Part shown: one piece after another, positions 1-52,571 of the stretch | Layout of the letters: the number at the start of each line of letters is the position of its first letter | Position numbering within the stretch: position 1 is the stretch's first letter | Origin: Atopobium fossor DSM 15642 | Lineage (GTDB): Bacteria; Actinomycetota; Coriobacteriia; Coriobacteriales; Atopobiaceae | DNA length: 64,000 bases | Assembly (NCBI RefSeq): GCF_000483125.1 | Contig: NZ_KI519553.1 | Span: 221,124 to 285,123 of the forward strand | Direction of reading: 5' to 3' | Notes under the pieces: generated by a model | What the model saw: only the letters and a program-made list of their open reading frames with translations | Database searches by the model: none | What the model was told of the DNA's origin: nothing | Translations under genes and position numbers: made by a program

Positions 1-95
1 TTTCACGCTAATTAGCCTACCTGCTGTTTTATTCAGCGTAACTAGCATATCTAATTTATTCAGCTACATTTAAGGCAACTCGTAAAGCGGGGGTC
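1..95 (+). repeat. Left attachment-site repeat (attL), identical to 35890-35984
   Basis: All 95 bases match 35890-35984 exactly. After base 95 the two copies diverge but stay similar through the tRNA-like 3' end and the following terminator. Identity may continue left of the window. The first 78 bases are not tRNA-like; at the right end the same 78 bases lie between the integrase gene and the core. Confidence 0.85.
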
Positions 96-123
96 GCAGG
101 TTCAAGTCCCGTAGCTGGCTCCA
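79..123 (+). pseudogene. 3' fragment of tRNA-Thr (anticodon CGT), phage-borne copy
   Basis: Reads as anticodon loop CTCGTAA, 3' anticodon stem AGCGG, variable loop, T arm with TTCAAGT loop, acceptor 3' strand AGCTGGC, then T and CCA. The T stem (GCAGG/CCCGT) has one A-C mismatch, unlike the copy at 35968. The 5' half of a tRNA is absent upstream, so this is a fragment and not a gene. It is the phage attP version of the target tRNA end. Confidence 0.7.
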
Positions 124-132
124 TATTTATGC

Positions 133-164
133 AGGTAGATGGCTTATAGTCGTCTACCTTTTCT
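133..164 (+). terminator. Terminator after the tRNA-like fragment
   Basis: AGGTAGA (133-139) pairs with TCTACCT (153-159), followed by TTTTCTTTT. A near-identical hairpin follows the right copy at 36022, so the phage mimics both the tRNA end and its terminator. Confidence 0.6.
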
Positions 165-4355: not shown

Positions 4356-4562
4356 ATGTTTTCTCAGGCAATCTATGACCAGCTTTTAGCATCCTGTGAA
4401 ATGTATTTTGCATTTCTAGTTGAGCAAGGATGCGATGAAGATTTAGCAGCAGATAGGACATTTGATGCTTTGGATTCTGCTGTTGAGCAAAAACACCATG
4501 TATTTGACCAGCGAGACCGAGCATTTGAAGAATCATTAGCACAAACTATAGAAAGAGGTTAA
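4356..4562 (+). CDS. Hypothetical small protein
   Basis: 68 aa, acidic and helical, no Gly-rich or cysteine motif. The C-terminal phrase KQHHVFDQRD-like (EQKHHVFDQRDRAFEESL) resembles the central phrase of the late regulator at 12657 (DKQLHVFDEREKECD), so the two may share a helical element. Function unknown. Confidence 0.6.
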   Translation: MFSQAIYDQLLASCEMYFAFLVEQGCDEDLAADRTFDALDSAVEQKHHVFDQRDRAFEESLAQTIERG

Positions 4563-6743: not shown

Positions 6744-7044
6744 CCTAGGGACCCGCTGGACAGCAGCAGAAGACACCATCCTTAGAGCAGGGTACGCTCA
6801 AGGGCATGGTTGCTATTGGTCAGGATGGTATGAGCTATTGCCAGGCAGAAGTGTTTACGCGATTAATAACCATGCCCAGAAGCTAGGTGTTGGTCTACGA
6901 AGGAACCACAAGTGGACGCCTAAAGATGACCAAGATATTTTATCGGCTATTGATTTTTTGGCAGAAAAACTCCAAGCAAGCCGACAAACAGTTATGCGTA
7001 GAGTCGTAACTTTGTATCAGAGGGAGAGGGGTAAAGATGGATGA
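6733..7044 (+). CDS. Myb/SANT-like phage DNA-binding protein, paralog 2
   Basis: 103 aa using ATG 6733, which places the first Trp at residue 9 as in its paralogs; ATG 6709 is the alternative. Motifs RWTAAEDTILRAGYAQGHG and LPGRSVYAINNHAQKLGVG, then KWTPKDDQDILSAIDFLAEKLQ and QTVMRRVVTLYQRE. Closest in layout to 12336 (shared VMRR and LYQR/LYRA endings). Confidence 0.72.
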   Translation: MRSSLGTRWTAAEDTILRAGYAQGHGCYWSGWYELLPGRSVYAINNHAQKLGVGLRRNHKWTPKDDQDILSAIDFLAEKLQASRQTVMRRVVTLYQRERGKDG

Positions 7045-7477
7045 CAGTTTTATTGGTTTAAACATTGACAAACGTTTTATCAGCGTTGCGGTAGCAGCGC
7101 TTGTTATTGTTGCCGTGGCTATAACGGCGCTCAGTCTAACCAGTTGCAAAGAAGCAGACCGTGTATCACACAACATCAGCCAGGAAGCCGATAACTTCAA
7201 CGTAGTACGACGCTTGACGGTTATCAATTGTCGTTCTGACCAGGTAACACTACAGCTGACAGGTACGTTTTCCATCCATAAGAACAACAATACTAACGAA
7301 CTCGAAGTGACCTGTGAGTTGCCAGACGGTAAGTACACCAAGCACTTTGTGTATCTCAATGAGTGGACGTGTTACACCGTAGAGGATCTAAGCGGCTCAA
7401 CTGTAGACAAGTACAGCTATGAGCTTAATTTCTTGCCGCAAGAAATCCCTGGCGTAAAAATCGTAAGTAAGGACTAA
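7037..7477 (+). CDS. Phage beta-sandwich-type lipoprotein
   Basis: 146 aa. Membrane segment at about 14-34 ends in a lipobox (LTSC, Cys37), so the product is probably lipid-anchored and outside the membrane. The rest alternates polar and hydrophobic residues in beta pattern (VTLQLTGTFSIH, LEVTCELPDG). Similar small lipoproteins in actinobacterial and clostridial phages are annotated beta-sandwich lipoproteins. Some phage lipoproteins exclude superinfecting phage; that role here is only a possibility. Confidence 0.68.
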   Translation: MDDSFIGLNIDKRFISVAVAALVIVAVAITALSLTSCKEADRVSHNISQEADNFNVVRRLTVINCRSDQVTLQLTGTFSIHKNNNTNELEVTCELPDGKYTKHFVYLNEWTCYTVEDLSGSTVDKYSYELNFLPQEIPGVKIVSKD

Positions 7478-7479
7478 AG

Positions 7480-7857
7480 ATGGCTAATCCAACACCCGAA
7501 CAGCGCGAAGAAGCTGCAAAGTGCCTACGCGAAAATATCGTTCGTATCTATGATTGGGTAAGCGGTTACGATATTGCAGCAATGATAGGTGTCGAGAATT
7601 ACACGGGAAACAAAGATAGTACGGATGAGCTGCTTGAACGCCTTGCTGGGCTTATTGACCCTACATGTCGCATCATCTACAAAAATACATCTTGGTTTGC
7701 ACATGACGGTATACACGTTTACGAGTGGGAGTGTAAGTGCTCTGAGTGCGGTGCTGACCTTACAGATTATTGCGAAGACGCACTAGGAGAATGCGAAGAA
7801 AAGCCATTTAATTACTGCCCCAATTGCGGATCTCGCGTTACGGAGGTGTGCGAATGA
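7480..7857 (+). CDS. Phage zinc-ribbon protein, copy A
   Basis: 125 aa. N-terminal helical part (REEAAKCLRENI, LLERLAGLIDPTC) and a C-terminal zinc ribbon: ECKCSECGA paired with YCPNCGSR. The next gene (7854) has the same layout, so they are tandem duplicates. Ends in ATGA overlap with that gene. Confidence 0.72.
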   Translation: MANPTPEQREEAAKCLRENIVRIYDWVSGYDIAAMIGVENYTGNKDSTDELLERLAGLIDPTCRIIYKNTSWFAHDGIHVYEWECKCSECGADLTDYCEDALGECEEKPFNYCPNCGSRVTEVCE

Positions 7858-8186
7858 GTGACGAGCGGCAAGAGATTGCAGAAAGGTTGAGGTTTTTCGC
7901 AGACAATGGTGTTGCCTCTTGGGCTATTGGAGCGTTTCTTCATAGCTGGATTAACGTAGATGATATAGCCGATGATAAAGGTCTAACTGTTACCCCTGAA
8001 TCATCGCTGAGAACAAACTCGGAGACACTCAATAAGCTTGCTAATCTCATATACCCCACGTGTGAAATGGTTGAGGATGAACCATACAGCTGTCATTGCA
8101 CAGCATGTGGGCGGACAAAAATGTATCCCCTAATAGGGTGGAATTATTGCCCTAACTGTGGCGCGCGTATTGTGGAGGACAAATAA
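7854..8186 (+). CDS. Phage zinc-ribbon protein, copy B
   Basis: 110 aa from ATG 7854, which overlaps the previous stop (ATGA). Same order as copy A: helical region, LANLIYPTCEM, CHCTACGR, then YCPNCGARI. Function unknown; small zinc-ribbon proteins with this ending are common in phage early regions. Confidence 0.72.
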   Translation: MSDERQEIAERLRFFADNGVASWAIGAFLHSWINVDDIADDKGLTVTPESSLRTNSETLNKLANLIYPTCEMVEDEPYSCHCTACGRTKMYPLIGWNYCPNCGARIVEDK

Positions 8187-33021: not shown

Positions 33022-33800
33022 TGGCTTGGTATCCTTGGAAAGCCATTTGGGCAAGCTCGCGCACCTATACACGCGGGCGCGGTGGTAAAAAGCCTGAATA
33101 CATCTTTATTCATTACACGTCCTCACAAGCAAGTGCGCGTAATAATTGCCTGTACTTTAGCGGCGGCAATCGTGGTGCATCTGCGCATCTCTTCATTGAT
33201 GGTAACGGGACGATTTACCAGTCAGTGCCATTAGACGACACCGCCTGGGCAGTGGGCAATTTCGATCTTAATCAACGCTCAATCTCTATTGAGGTAGTAA
33301 GTGATGGGCGAGATTTTAGCGATGCGGAAATCGCCGAGCTTATCTATCTTGTGCGCTACTTGATGGATAAATACGGTATCCCAGCAAGCCGTGTACTGCG
33401 CCACTATGACGCTGCAAGTGTAGCAAGCGTGGGCAAAACAGCTGACCCTTGGAAGCATTGTCCCGCGCCTTATATCAACAATGCAAAATGGAACGCTTTA
33501 TGGAAGCAAATTACTACAGGAGATGATGACGAAGTGACTAGTGCAGATATTGAAGCTATTGCAACTCGTACGATGGAAAAGATTTGGGGATATTGCTGGG
33601 CAGGAAGTGCTAAGGATAAGGCACGTGGCAATGTGTATGACCGCCTGGCATTTATCTTTGATGCCTTGCAATTCAAAGGCTGGGATTATAAAAATGCAAG
33701 TGCAGGCGACACAATCGACATGCATCAGATGCTTGTAGAGTGCCACCAGATGCTACTTGAGCAGTCCAAGCGCATTGATGCTTTGGAGAAAAAGAAGTAA
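33021..33800 (+). CDS. Endolysin, N-acetylmuramoyl-L-alanine amidase
   Basis: 259 aa. Amidase_2 domain at about 20-165: FIHYTSSQ (first zinc His), SISIEVVSD, YLMDKYGIPASRVLRHYDA (second His) and KTADPWKHCP (Lys and Cys/Asp ligand region). C-terminal region (about 180-259) with TRTMEKIWGYCW and a helical tail is probably a wall-targeting part. Cleaves peptidoglycan at the end of the lytic cycle. Confidence 0.93.
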   Translation: MAWYPWKAIWASSRTYTRGRGGKKPEYIFIHYTSSQASARNNCLYFSGGNRGASAHLFIDGNGTIYQSVPLDDTAWAVGNFDLNQRSISIEVVSDGRDFSDAEIAELIYLVRYLMDKYGIPASRVLRHYDAASVASVGKTADPWKHCPAPYINNAKWNALWKQITTGDDDEVTSADIEAIATRTMEKIWGYCWAGSAKDKARGNVYDRLAFIFDALQFKGWDYKNASAGDTIDMHQMLVECHQMLLEQSKRIDALEKKK

Positions 33801-33988
33801 TGGAGGACTGGAAGCTTACAGTGTGGAGCACACTATCTGATAATCCAGGTTTTCAATACTCAAAGATACGTACCGAGCACTTCGCATCCCGTAAAGGCGT
33901 TGAACGATTTATCAAAGACCATTATCTAGCCGTAAAGGTTACGTGGTTTGATGAAGAAAAGCGGTGTAGCGTCATTGTAAAGGGGTAG
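33800..33988 (+). CDS. Hypothetical protein after the endolysin
   Basis: 62 aa, coupled to the endolysin (TAATG). Alpha/beta pattern with Trp at WKLTVW and VTWFDEEK. Last gene of the late operon. No family recognised. Confidence 0.65.
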   Translation: MEDWKLTVWSTLSDNPGFQYSKIRTEHFASRKGVERFIKDHYLAVKVTWFDEEKRCSVIVKG

Positions 33989-34074
33989 TATGTACATAGA
34001 GCTGGGGACACCTCTCCATGATGTGCAAATCCCCCGCGTACTTACTCGTTCTGCCAGCGGTAGAAGGAGATTCC

Positions 34075-34110
34075 GGGGGCGTCGCTGTCACAGTGGCGCC
34101 CCTTGCTTTT
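34075..34110 (+). terminator. Late operon terminator
   Basis: GGGGGCG (34075-34081) pairs with GCGCCCC (34096-34102) around a loop with its own partial pairing, followed by TTGCTTTTT. Confidence 0.7.
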
Positions 34111-34320
34111 TGGTACAATATTAGCGATGACGGATATTGGCGGGTACGCCCCCATATCCCAAGCTGGTAGTAGCATTGTGGTAGTGCAAAACCAGTGAAT
34201 ACCACGGGCGTTTTACAGGGCACGTCCTGACAACCAATACAAGCTGCTGTCTAGGCAATGCAATTCGCGATTGCAAGCCGAACCCCTCACTTGCCAAATG
34301 GTAGGTGAGGGGTCTTTTTT
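34111..34320 (+). ncRNA. Candidate structured small RNA 1 (about 195 nt)
   Basis: An extended -10 promoter TGGTACAAT at 34111-34119 predicts a start near 34126. The RNA would begin with a long hairpin (34132-34159, 11 pairs with small bulges, TACG loop), continue with CTGGT/ACCAG and GCAAT/ATTGC hairpins and end in a strong terminator (34282-34320: ACCCCTCAC with GTGAGGGGT, then TTTTTT). No convincing ORF. No known family recognised. Confidence 0.6.
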
Positions 34321-34385: not shown

Positions 34386-34590
34386 TGGTATAATAGCTAT
34401 GCGCACGTGCAACTGTGGATATGCGGGGTTCCCGAAGGGGAGTAGGCGAGCGCTTAGAATTCCCCGCCCACAGCCTAAGAATGATTTACTTAAAACCAGC
34501 GGGTATATTTATGCAGGCAAACGGCTTGTTGTAAGGCGTTTTAAGCCGTTAGAATTTTGCAAACGAGTATTTATGCCTGCTTTTTACCAA
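34386..34590 (+). ncRNA. Candidate structured small RNA 2 (about 190 nt)
   Basis: TGGTATAAT at 34386-34394 is a near-consensus extended -10 box; TTTGTGAGACACAAA, a palindrome related to the origin iterons, lies about 35 bases upstream. The RNA would fold as CTGTGG (34413) with CCACAG (34468) and GCGGGG (34423) with CCCCGC (34462), enclosing a CCC-GGG hairpin. The 3' end holds nested pairs GCAGGCA...TGCCTGC and AACGGCTT...AAGCCGTT before TTTTT at 34581, meeting the integrase stop. Confidence 0.55.
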
Positions 34591-35798
34591 TTACTAGCAT
34601 TGTCAAGCTTAACTACATCACCAGATGGAGCAGACAGCGCTTTATCCATTGCCCCCGCTGCATCTACAATTTGCGATAAGTCAGTATCCGCGTATCTCAT
34701 GGTCATGGAGATGTCTGAATGTCCTAAAATATCCTGCGCCGTCTTAATGTTAAGCGCACGAACGGCGACAGTAGCATAAGTATGGCGCAAGTCATGGAAT
34801 GTTGGTCTATGGTTTTGCGTGCCAACCAGTCCCCACTCTTTAGAATGCGCAGTCCACCAATGCGTAAGATTGTGCGGATTCAAATATCGACCGTCCGGGT
34901 ATCCACAAACATATAAATCTGGTGAGAAGGCTACCCCAGCATTTAGGCATTCCTCTAATATTTTTGTTCGTCTATCGTTAAGCAATTTAGCAAGTTCAGG
35001 GGGAACTGGGACAACCCTATCTTTATTTGTCTTTGTAGACTTAACATAGGTTCCTTTTCGCCCCACTCCAACACTACGGCGCACATGCATTACTTTTGTG
35101 GTACCTGCAAGCTGGATGTCACCCCAGCGCAAGCCGCACACTTCACCGCGGCGCATCCCCGTATAATATGCTATCCACGTTGCCACAACTTCTTGTGTTA
35201 GCTCTATATCATTAAGCCTAGCGATCAAAACGCGTCGTGATGGTTCGTCTAATGGATTTGGAAGAACAGATATTTGCTTGGGCGTAGCCACAGGCTCACA
35301 AGGAGACCAATCTATAATTCTGGATGCCACAGCGTGCTTAAAACCAGCCTTTAATACGTTGTACGCCTTTTTCACAGTATTAGGGGATAACTGCTGTTCA
35401 TCACGTAGGTAAGAAATAAAACCCTCGACATCATCAGGAGTGGACTCTTCAACTGTTTTGTTTTGGAAATAATGGCGGACATATTTTATATATAACTCAT
35501 ATCCATTCATGGTAGTTTCTTCAATATTGTTGCTTAGCACTTTAGACTCGTACCATTTTGTTAAATATTCCCACAGCACGTGGTTTGAACTTTTATTTGA
35601 ACTTTGAACTTTTGCTATATTCAAAGAATTAAACCACGTTTGCGTGTATTGTTTTGCTTTTCGTTTGCCTGTATTGTCTGTAGCATTACATGGCACATTT
35701 GTCATAACAGACCGCTGGACCCATTTTTCGTTGACTTTAAATTGTGCAATTCCTCTCCAATATTTTCCTTCTTTTCTTACATAAAAAGATACATACAT
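34584..35798 (-). CDS. int: Tyrosine site-specific integrase
   Basis: 404 aa. N-terminal arm-binding domain (about 1-65), core-binding SAM-like domain (about 75-170), catalytic domain with Arg216 (GMRRGEVCGL), Lys near 256, His335 and Arg338 (FHDLRHT), His360 (LGHS) and Tyr369. All catalytic residues are present. It inserts and excises the prophage at the repeats. The start at 35798 is 91 bp from the repeat, and GCGCCGTA arm sites lie just upstream. Confidence 0.96.
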   Translation of the reverse strand: MYVSFYVRKEGKYWRGIAQFKVNEKWVQRSVMTNVPCNATDNTGKRKAKQYTQTWFNSLNIAKVQSSNKSSNHVLWEYLTKWYESKVLSNNIEETTMNGYELYIKYVRHYFQNKTVEESTPDDVEGFISYLRDEQQLSPNTVKKAYNVLKAGFKHAVASRIIDWSPCEPVATPKQISVLPNPLDEPSRRVLIARLNDIELTQEVVATWIAYYTGMRRGEVCGLRWGDIQLAGTTKVMHVRRSVGVGRKGTYVKSTKTNKDRVVPVPPELAKLLNDRRTKILEECLNAGVAFSPDLYVCGYPDGRYLNPHNLTHWWTAHSKEWGLVGTQNHRPTFHDLRHTYATVAVRALNIKTAQDILGHSDISMTMRYADTDLSQIVDAAGAMDKALSAPSGDVVKLDNASNW

Positions 35799-35889: not shown

Positions 35890-35984
35890 TTTCACGCTAA
35901 TTAGCCTACCTGCTGTTTTATTCAGCGTAACTAGCATATCTAATTTATTCAGCTACATTTAAGGCAACTCGTAAAGCGGGGGTC
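35890..35984 (+). repeat. Right attachment-site repeat (attR), identical to 1-95
   Basis: Exact copy of 1-95. Recombination must have occurred inside this segment; the tRNA-derived stretch from 35968 is the likely core. Confidence 0.85.
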
Positions 35985-36012
35985 ACCAGTTCAAGTCTGG
36001 TAGCTGGCTCCA
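35968..36012 (+). pseudogene. 3' fragment of tRNA-Thr (anticodon CGT), chromosomal copy
   Basis: Same layout as 79-123, but with a perfect T stem (ACCAG/CTGGT), so bases after 35984 are probably the ancestral chromosomal tRNA end. The 5' half is missing. The complete tRNA gene must be outside the window. Confidence 0.72.
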
Positions 36013-36021
36013 TGTTTGTGC

Positions 36022-36056
36022 AGGTAGATGGCTTATGGTCGTCTACCTTTTTTATT
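36022..36056 (+). terminator. Terminator after the tRNA remnant
   Basis: AGGTAGA (36022-36028) pairs with TCTACCT (36042-36048), then TTTTTTATTTTTT. It overlaps the stop of the leftward small ORF at 36052. Confidence 0.65.
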
Positions 36057-52318: not shown

Positions 52319-52571
52319 TACACAAATCCTACCGCTATATTCACCTGTCTTTCACGATTGTTTGACCTTCTCGGGAAACGGGATAGTAAGTCTGGTAGAA
52401 GGTAACGCGGTTCGTAAAGGTTTCGTTTCTTTTGGTCTGCGGTCACTTAAGCTCATCTATGCTGATACCATAGAAAAAATGTGCGCAACCAACGCAGTCT
52501 ACGCTTGTTGCGCCGTCTGAGGGCAATGGTCATCCGTACCGACACGGGGTGATCCAGACGAAAGGAATACT
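52319..52571 (+). promoter_or_regulatory. Structured leader of aspS
   Basis: Three stem pairs: ACCTTCT with AGAAGGT (about 52365 and 52396), GCGCAAC with GTTGCGC (about 52482 and 52506), and GTCTG with CAGAC (about 52515 and 52557) with an inner TCATCC/GGGTGA pair. The last lies just before the ribosome site. A leader with mutual alternatives is possible. T-box consensus was not found. Confidence 0.4.

Follow-up and report, generated by a model that had tools for sequence, protein, structure and literature searches.

A candidate phage non-coding RNA between the late operon and the integrase gene of an Atopobium fossor prophage, within an array of stand-alone RNA units that may act against defence proteins

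This locus raises the question of whether a short stretch between the late operon and the integrase gene of a prophage is a phage gene for a non-coding RNA, and of what such an RNA might do. It lies in a 64,000-nucleotide stretch of the genome of Atopobium fossor DSM 15642 (the window, in what follows), and it was analyzed together with its neighbours on both sides and with its counterpart in a second prophage of the same genome. The features of the unit, here called ncRNA1, and the genes that flank the region are the following:

33800 to 33988, plus strand: 62-aa ORF that closes the late operon, just after the amidase gene, without a Pfam match; left flank of the array
34075 to 34103, plus strand: late operon terminator, 13-pair stem with a T-rich tail to 34110 (terminator scan)
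34111 to 34119, plus strand: predicted extended −10 promoter of ncRNA1, TGGTACAAT (motif search; kept in the second prophage)
34124 to 34320, plus strand: candidate RNA ncRNA1, with the 5′ hairpin at 34132-34159, a central helix (34167-34174/34243-34250), small hairpins and the terminator
34127 to 34198, plus strand: possible leaderless frame of 23 codons, with its ATG at 34127, about the expected transcription start
34132 to 34159, plus strand: 5′ hairpin of 11 pairs (folding)
34282 to 34320, plus strand: intrinsic terminator, 14-pair stem and T run (terminator scan)
34584 to 35798, minus strand: convergent tyrosine integrase gene of the prophage, bounding the array on the right

The signals from which the original prediction had built the unit were recovered at both of its ends. 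The extended −10 promoter is present, the strong terminator consists of 14 pairs at 34282-34313 followed by a T run to 34320, and the 13 pairs of the late operon terminator stand directly ahead of the unit, as had been proposed. The 11-pair hairpin was likewise found, with an energy of −12.4 kcal/mol that was matched by 0.27% of 18278 28-nt windows. Terminator-like rows numbered three in the region (two of them at one place), against 0.7 expected. The motif TGNTAYAAT occurred at five sites on both strands of the 64 kb, against 7.15 expected, and two of the five open ncRNA1 and the downstream element ncRNA2, 275 bases apart and on the same strand. No good −35 box was found for the promoter at 34111, and the scan for two hexamers omits the site.

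The further hairpins that had been proposed between these signals fared worse. The whole unit gave a fold z of −3.4 in the window and −3.7 in the copy of the second prophage; once the terminator was removed, the values were only −0.6 and −1.1, no better than chance, and 45% of 426 windows taken from the 64 kb folded as well as the unit without its terminator. Since the excess of stability comes from the terminator, fold energy was dropped as evidence for ncRNA1. Judged by energy, the terminator and the first hairpin are the only parts of the unit that stand out.

The unit had also been described as free of ORFs, which holds for long conserved frames: a frame of 73 aa on the minus strand over the unit is stopped in the second copy. 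The 23-codon frame at 34127-34198 does exist, and it suggests another reading, namely a leaderless micropeptide gene starting at the ATG at 34127, with an mRNA structured by chance. This ATG lies 8 bases past the −10 hexamer, at the expected transcription start, and both copies retain the frame, the two changes in it being one silent and one a replacement. Given that it takes up about the first third of the unit and that conservation reaches the terminator, we consider such a gene very improbable.

The comparison of the two prophages was more informative, and what goes beyond chance in the unit is its conservation between them. The unit is found at the same place in the second prophage and is 95.8% identical, with differences at 9 of the 214 sites from promoter to terminator. 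In the neighbouring 62-aa ORF the prophages differ at 24 of the 60 third codon positions and at 5 of the 120 others, and the unit compared with the third codon positions gave a Fisher P of 2e-11 (run on 9/213). The right edge of the conserved stretch is sharp and coincides with the terminator, directly past which the sites 34321, 34324, 34326, 34328 and 34330 differ; the conservation therefore ends where the transcript should end. The left edge is not at the promoter, as within the late terminator (34061-34106) a single site of 46 differs. In the spacer to the left of it, 5 of 23 sites differ and there is a gap, and the abiF-like element further upstream shows two differences in 40 sites and a gap.

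These data also bear on the reading that no stable transcript is made, the unit being a terminator and a chance −10 hexamer, and that its conservation comes from a recent exchange between the prophages. Only two copies are at hand, both from one genome, the fold without terminator is ordinary and the conserved stretch runs on the left through the late terminator; a recent exchange would leave much the same picture, and with two sequences the cases are indistinguishable. The exact coincidence of the right end with the terminator, together with the use of two of the five TGNTAYAAT sites of the 64 kb as openings of the two units, argues against it, and in our judgement this reading is rather improbable.

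Eight of the differences fall inside the RNA: five are unpaired, and three lie in pairs of the consensus fold, all of which are kept. The consensus fold of the two sequences has no broken pair (simulated P 0.005). In the best fold of the window alone two of five pairs are broken (P 0.10), and therefore the support that the substitutions lend to the predicted structure is weak. No double compensatory change was seen between the only two copies found, and it is because only these two copies exist that ncRNA1 is without covariation. Taken together, an independent phage non-coding RNA unit at 34111-34320 is well supported. In the original claim of an independent transcript, the independence stood, on the promoter, the terminators, the conservation in two prophages and an insert-like position; its transcription is something we infer. 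The suggested expression in the lysogen is plausible, judging from the predicted promoter of its own.

Relatives of ncRNA1 were sought by sequence and by structure. Searches with blastn of the own genome, 140 genomes of the family, and phage and plasmid records returned no relative beyond the two prophages. Among 395 genomes of the order, 13 had a match at E up to 0.05, and the matches were long only in the two copies of the own genome; the others, of 18-28 bases, were judged to be chance. The covariance model R1 found, in the same 395 genomes, the two copies and two further matches with E of 0.35 and 0.92, in a search which, over more than 40 genomes, uses stricter filters and loses weak matches. 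Applied to 34 and 17 fetched loci, R1 gave no further relative beyond the two prophages. Four patterns searched in IMG/VR returned the two prophages, or the one with the exact variant, and one of the patterns added four contigs; these share exact stretches of 17-18 bases (20 of 21 in one of them), R1 finds nothing in them, and they were judged to be chance, as were three pattern matches in genome contigs with 7.0-11.6 bits (E 0.39-5.1) under R1. By eye, two of these three look coding and the third (L123) seems to follow a gene. One IMG/VR contig (that of locus L054) is 100% identical to the window across 12,660 bases.

No Rfam family matched the unit at its cut-off, and up to E 10 there were only matches far below it. 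The best of these, SurA, lies on the minus strand over the terminator (E 0.0026, 18.9 of 100 bits); it was rejected together with a ClpQY match, both being on the terminator hairpin. No tRNA genes were found in the window. A type III antitoxin RNA was also rejected: the unit has no direct repeats, the one tandem row of the region being outside it, and no toxin gene adjoins, the flanks being the 62-aa ORF and the integrase. In the 395 genomes of the order and in the phage and plasmid records, no relative of ncRNA1 was found beside any defence gene.

An ordinary regulatory small RNA of the phage, pairing with phage or host mRNA in the control of, for example, lysogeny or superinfection, would also have a promoter and a terminator of its own, an integrase nearby and conservation between the two prophages. 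No long antisense targets were found in the window or in the whole genome. The best antisense match in the window has 14 bases (E 0.11) and the best non-self match in the whole genome has 17 bases (E 2.1), figures that speak against long complementarity and are compatible with short seeds. We regard a regulator of this kind as unlikely.

The neighbourhood of ncRNA1 offers another approach to its role. That the unit belongs to an array whose other members resemble RNA partners of defence proteins had escaped the original prediction. In two loci of the same genus (L063 and L067), the 62-aa ORF is followed directly by a terminator (assigned by eye) and then by the element found here at about 34513-34583. 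These two relatives lack the array, so the RNA units of the prophage in the window amount to an addition of about half a kilobase. In three other loci (L064, L065 and L068), the left flank alone is recognisable. The additional elements of the array are:

33998 to 34037, plus strand: abiF-RNA-like element without an abiF gene (RF03085 match at 34008-34031, model positions 7-30)
34386 to 34394, plus strand: predicted extended −10 promoter of ncRNA2, TGGTATAAT
34412 to 34477, plus strand: ncRNA2, a stand-alone relative of the RNA beside DUF3644 (PDC-S19) genes (model R2)
34493 to 34510, plus strand: remnant (3′ arm) of a further module, recognised by eye; the module appears complete in the second prophage and in genome G030

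The pattern of the whole module behind this remnant was found in L061 and L114 only. In the second prophage (L038, about 4405-4465, minus strand), a module CCCGCTGGGAGTAC...CCAGCGGG was noted which is shared with the prophage of G030 and which shows, by eye, an apparent compensatory change in the inner stem. As a separate observation, the conserved element at about 34513-34587, with the core CAAACGGCTTGTTGTAAGGCGTTTTAAGCCGTT, was matched at E <0.01 in 13 of the 140 family genomes, the own one included. In related prophages of G001 and G002 it directly adjoins the late terminator on the right, and it may be a terminator or an element of the attachment region.

The stretch 35900-36051, which has a tRNA-like 3′ end, is repeated with 95% identity at positions 11-162 of the window (L147, 2135-2286), and its right part has a 90% identical copy at the tRNA-Thr gene just to the left of the window. 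This places the probable end of the prophage just past the integrase. It was also observed that the attachment-like repeat occurs twice at the left end of the prophage, once at the tRNA-Thr gene and a second time some 115 bases further on (window 11-162; L147 1989-2103), where the doubling is perhaps due to a second element, now lost, at the same site. An aspS RNA (RF02930) was recorded elsewhere in the window, at 52483-52566 on the plus strand (59.1 bits).

The abiF and DUF3800 RNA motifs reportedly go back to a survey of candidate structured RNAs from 2017. The upstream element at 33998-34037 scored 19.4 bits with RF03085 in the window and 22.2 bits in the second prophage, without reaching the gathering cut-off of 37, which none of the 140 family genomes passed. 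At E up to 1, the own genome gave two matches, at the same place in each prophage. An ORF related to the Abi_2 protein of the host was present at 15 of the 29 loci returned by the search. The outer stem of the abiF RNA is absent from the element and the conserved core is present. The closest relatives of this core are in elements of L024 and L124, located just before regions coding for Abi_2 domains, where mechanically called ORFs start ahead of the abiF-like element and overlap it. Searched in IMG/VR, a 21-letter core pattern made from the prophage copies and L024 hit three stretches only: those of the two prophages, and a third that adjoins an Abi_2 domain. The RF03085 model does not report the L024 element. 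Because of this, of the score below the cut-off and of the missing outer stem, the abiF label rests on the core and the position. Abi_2 proteins of the L024/L124 type are AbiD according to PADLOC. The genome has a single Abi_2 match, located on contig 2, and neither prophage has one. Just upstream of this AbiD/Abi_2 gene of the host (L098, G000:C2 at about 131800-132500) a hairpin was noticed that is built differently and resembles a variant of abiF RNA; the RF03085 model does not report it.

For the downstream element, model R2, made from 13 RNAs adjoining DUF3644 genes with the copy of the window left out, matched 34412-34477 with 36.4 bits (E 5.8e-8) as its sole match in the window. Rfam gave no match for the RNA family of this element, and in the whole genome no DUF3644 (PF12358) match was found at E up to 0.001, so there is no convergent gene. 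In the alignment of 23 members of this RNA type, 10 of 21 pairs are changed on both sides. The covariation is strong: its score was reached by none of 500 shuffles and was lowered by sliding the partners, in a test that is favoured by the prediction of the structure from the same alignment.

Nineteen IMG/VR contigs carry the core pattern of ncRNA2. DUF3644 was matched in eight of these records, and seven, with the prophage of the window among them, have stand-alone RNAs (no DUF3644, and an RNA that is changed or differently placed). In the remaining four (L105, L110, L115 and L118) the RNA is of the gene-paired form, and their records gave no PF12358 match; L105 ends just past the RNA, and since viral records may be fragments, a gene missing there does not prove its absence. 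Among named phages, 20 records match the DUF3644-type RNA and six were examined. The RNA lies beside a DUF3644 gene in Corynebacterium phage Poushou, Flavonifractor phage Chenonceau and Streptococcus phage Javan254, as well as, by its annotation, in Listeria phage LP-HM00113468. It was found without a DUF3644 match in Eggerthella phage LE2-3 and in a 6.4-kb fragment. In LE2-3 (L142, 3001-3051) the stand-alone RNA, the weakest match of R2 (30.9 bits, E 2.6e-6), follows the last of three tRNA genes at a distance of about 500 bases, and neither DUF3644 nor DUF3800 was matched in the 112 kb. In this record a small hypothetical protein is annotated over part of the RNA.

Three RNAs of the DUF3644 type (L016, L027 and L029) adjoin other genes, encoding an RNase_T exonuclease, RloB and a SIR2-like protein; therefore the pairing with DUF3644 is not universal, and systems of more than one kind may make use of the RNA. 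DUF3644 is a family of HEPN proteins (PMC3710099). PADLOC lists it as PDC-S19, a name for which nothing was found in the open-access literature. Two further observations concern contigs with stand-alone RNAs. The tRNA genes suspected near the RNAs of L103 and L113 were left unconfirmed by ARAGORN, which confirmed those of L107, and L103 has a match to a Twister-sister ribozyme at 2892-2961 on the minus strand (44.7 bits).

ncRNA2 is absent from the second prophage, which has a different module in its place. Over about 70 bases this module is 81-85% identical to RNAs in genomes G135 and G036, which are convergent with a two-gene unit, a DUF3800 gene preceded by a small ORF of about 165 aa. Units of this kind in G075 and G078 show shorter matches (20-28 bases), and a further short match, in G107, is away from the DUF3800 gene of that genome. 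These DUF3800 proteins are PDC-M04A (PDC-M04) in PADLOC. It must be noted that DUF3644 and DUF3800 proteins are no more than candidates in PADLOC, and that their control by the neighbouring RNAs is putative. The module had no match in phage records, and the DUF3800 families of Rfam had none in either prophage array (L038 included). Phage contig L113 contains a DUF3800-VII RNA (RF02967; 62.6 bits) about 600 bases from a stand-alone RNA of the DUF3644 type, and its 19.7-kb record has no match to DUF3644 or DUF3800 proteins. The region at about 6770-8000 of its reverse complement, more than 1 kb that is apparently non-coding, includes both RNAs and tRNA-like pieces and is perhaps a second RNA array.

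Neither prophage of the own genome contains Abi_2, DUF3644 or DUF3800 genes. The modules might be relics, RNA partners of defence systems that were left after the loss of the protein genes and have no present function, and the single arm remaining at 34493-34510 is what such a decay would leave. We find this improbable for ncRNA1 and its neighbours, as differences are far rarer in the unit than at third codon positions, promoter and terminator are kept, all three protein families are without a match in both prophages, and stand-alone copies of the neighbouring module recur in other phages.

The explanation that we favour is that ncRNA1 is a real phage RNA gene in an array of stand-alone RNAs and, most likely, a decoy disarming a defence protein of the host or of a rival element; we give it a little less than an even chance. 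Stand-alone RNA units are arrayed between the late operon and the integrase, ncRNA1, with a promoter of its own, being one member, and under this explanation each RNA would imitate the RNA partner of a defence protein of the host or of a rival element. The mimic would bind the protein in trans and keep it inactive, and the phage during infection, or the lysogen, would be protected. Three kinds of modules by ncRNA1 resemble RNAs beside AbiD/F, DUF3644 and DUF3800 genes. The likeness of these modules to defence RNAs, the missing protein genes and the precedents considered below are the reasons for which the array is therefore read as an anti-defence RNA island. ncRNA1 shares with RNA mimics that it is carried by a phage, that it has a predicted promoter and that its prophage is without the three candidate protein families. 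No likeness to a known defence-system RNA was found in ncRNA1, only in the neighbouring modules. The anatomy of the unit, its conservation, its setting in an array, the kinship of the neighbouring modules and the absence of the protein genes from both prophages are shown by the analysis. What we infer is that ncRNA1 is transcribed, that a protein is bound and inhibited and, from the neighbourhood, that its role is of the same kind as that of its neighbours.

Several known systems may be compared with this locus. The abiF RNA RCd22 binds AbiF and neutralises it, acting in trans as well as in cis (PMC12373285). Of abiF RNA (RF03085), the upstream element retains the conserved core; it differs in that no abiF gene follows and the score is below the cut-off, and ncRNA1 itself has no match. 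Phage PhiTE carries pseudo-ToxI, a mimic of the RNA antitoxin of ToxIN (PMC3475682). Like the neighbours of ncRNA1, pseudo-ToxI is a stand-alone phage RNA that resembles the RNA antitoxin of an abortive-infection system whose toxin gene is absent, whereas it consists of ToxI-type repeats directed against ToxN and here there are single modules of different kinds, ncRNA1 being without a known cognate. Racr anti-CRISPRs are phage RNAs that imitate CRISPR repeats in solitary repeat units (PMC10651486). They are likewise short phage RNAs behind a predicted promoter that imitate an RNA part of a defence system; they mimic CRISPR repeats, whereas the present modules resemble the RNAs at the side of AbiD/F, DUF3644 and DUF3800 genes. 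The DUF3800-VII RNA of L113 occurs without a DUF3800 gene, near a stand-alone RNA of the DUF3644 type. The DUF3800 RNAs of Rfam are not matched by either prophage array, whereas the module of the second prophage is akin to an RNA beside DUF3800 genes. In the accessible parts of the open-access literature, we found no report of stand-alone phage copies of AbiF, DUF3644 or DUF3800 RNAs, for DUF3644 only comparative work, and for DUF3800 with its RNA motif only predictions of RNA structure.

RNA-based counter-defence is thus already documented for ToxIN and CRISPR. It is possible, and we advance it tentatively, that phage arrays of stand-alone RNAs disarm AbiD/F, DUF3644/PDC-S19 and DUF3800/PDC-M04, and that ncRNA1 would be the decoy for a system not yet described. 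The arrays would also offer an easily tested handle on the control of DUF3644 and DUF3800 proteins. If this proposal is true, phages would be equipped with sets of antidote RNAs that counter several abortive-infection proteins simultaneously, and every orphan module, ncRNA1 included, would point to a defence protein still to be discovered.
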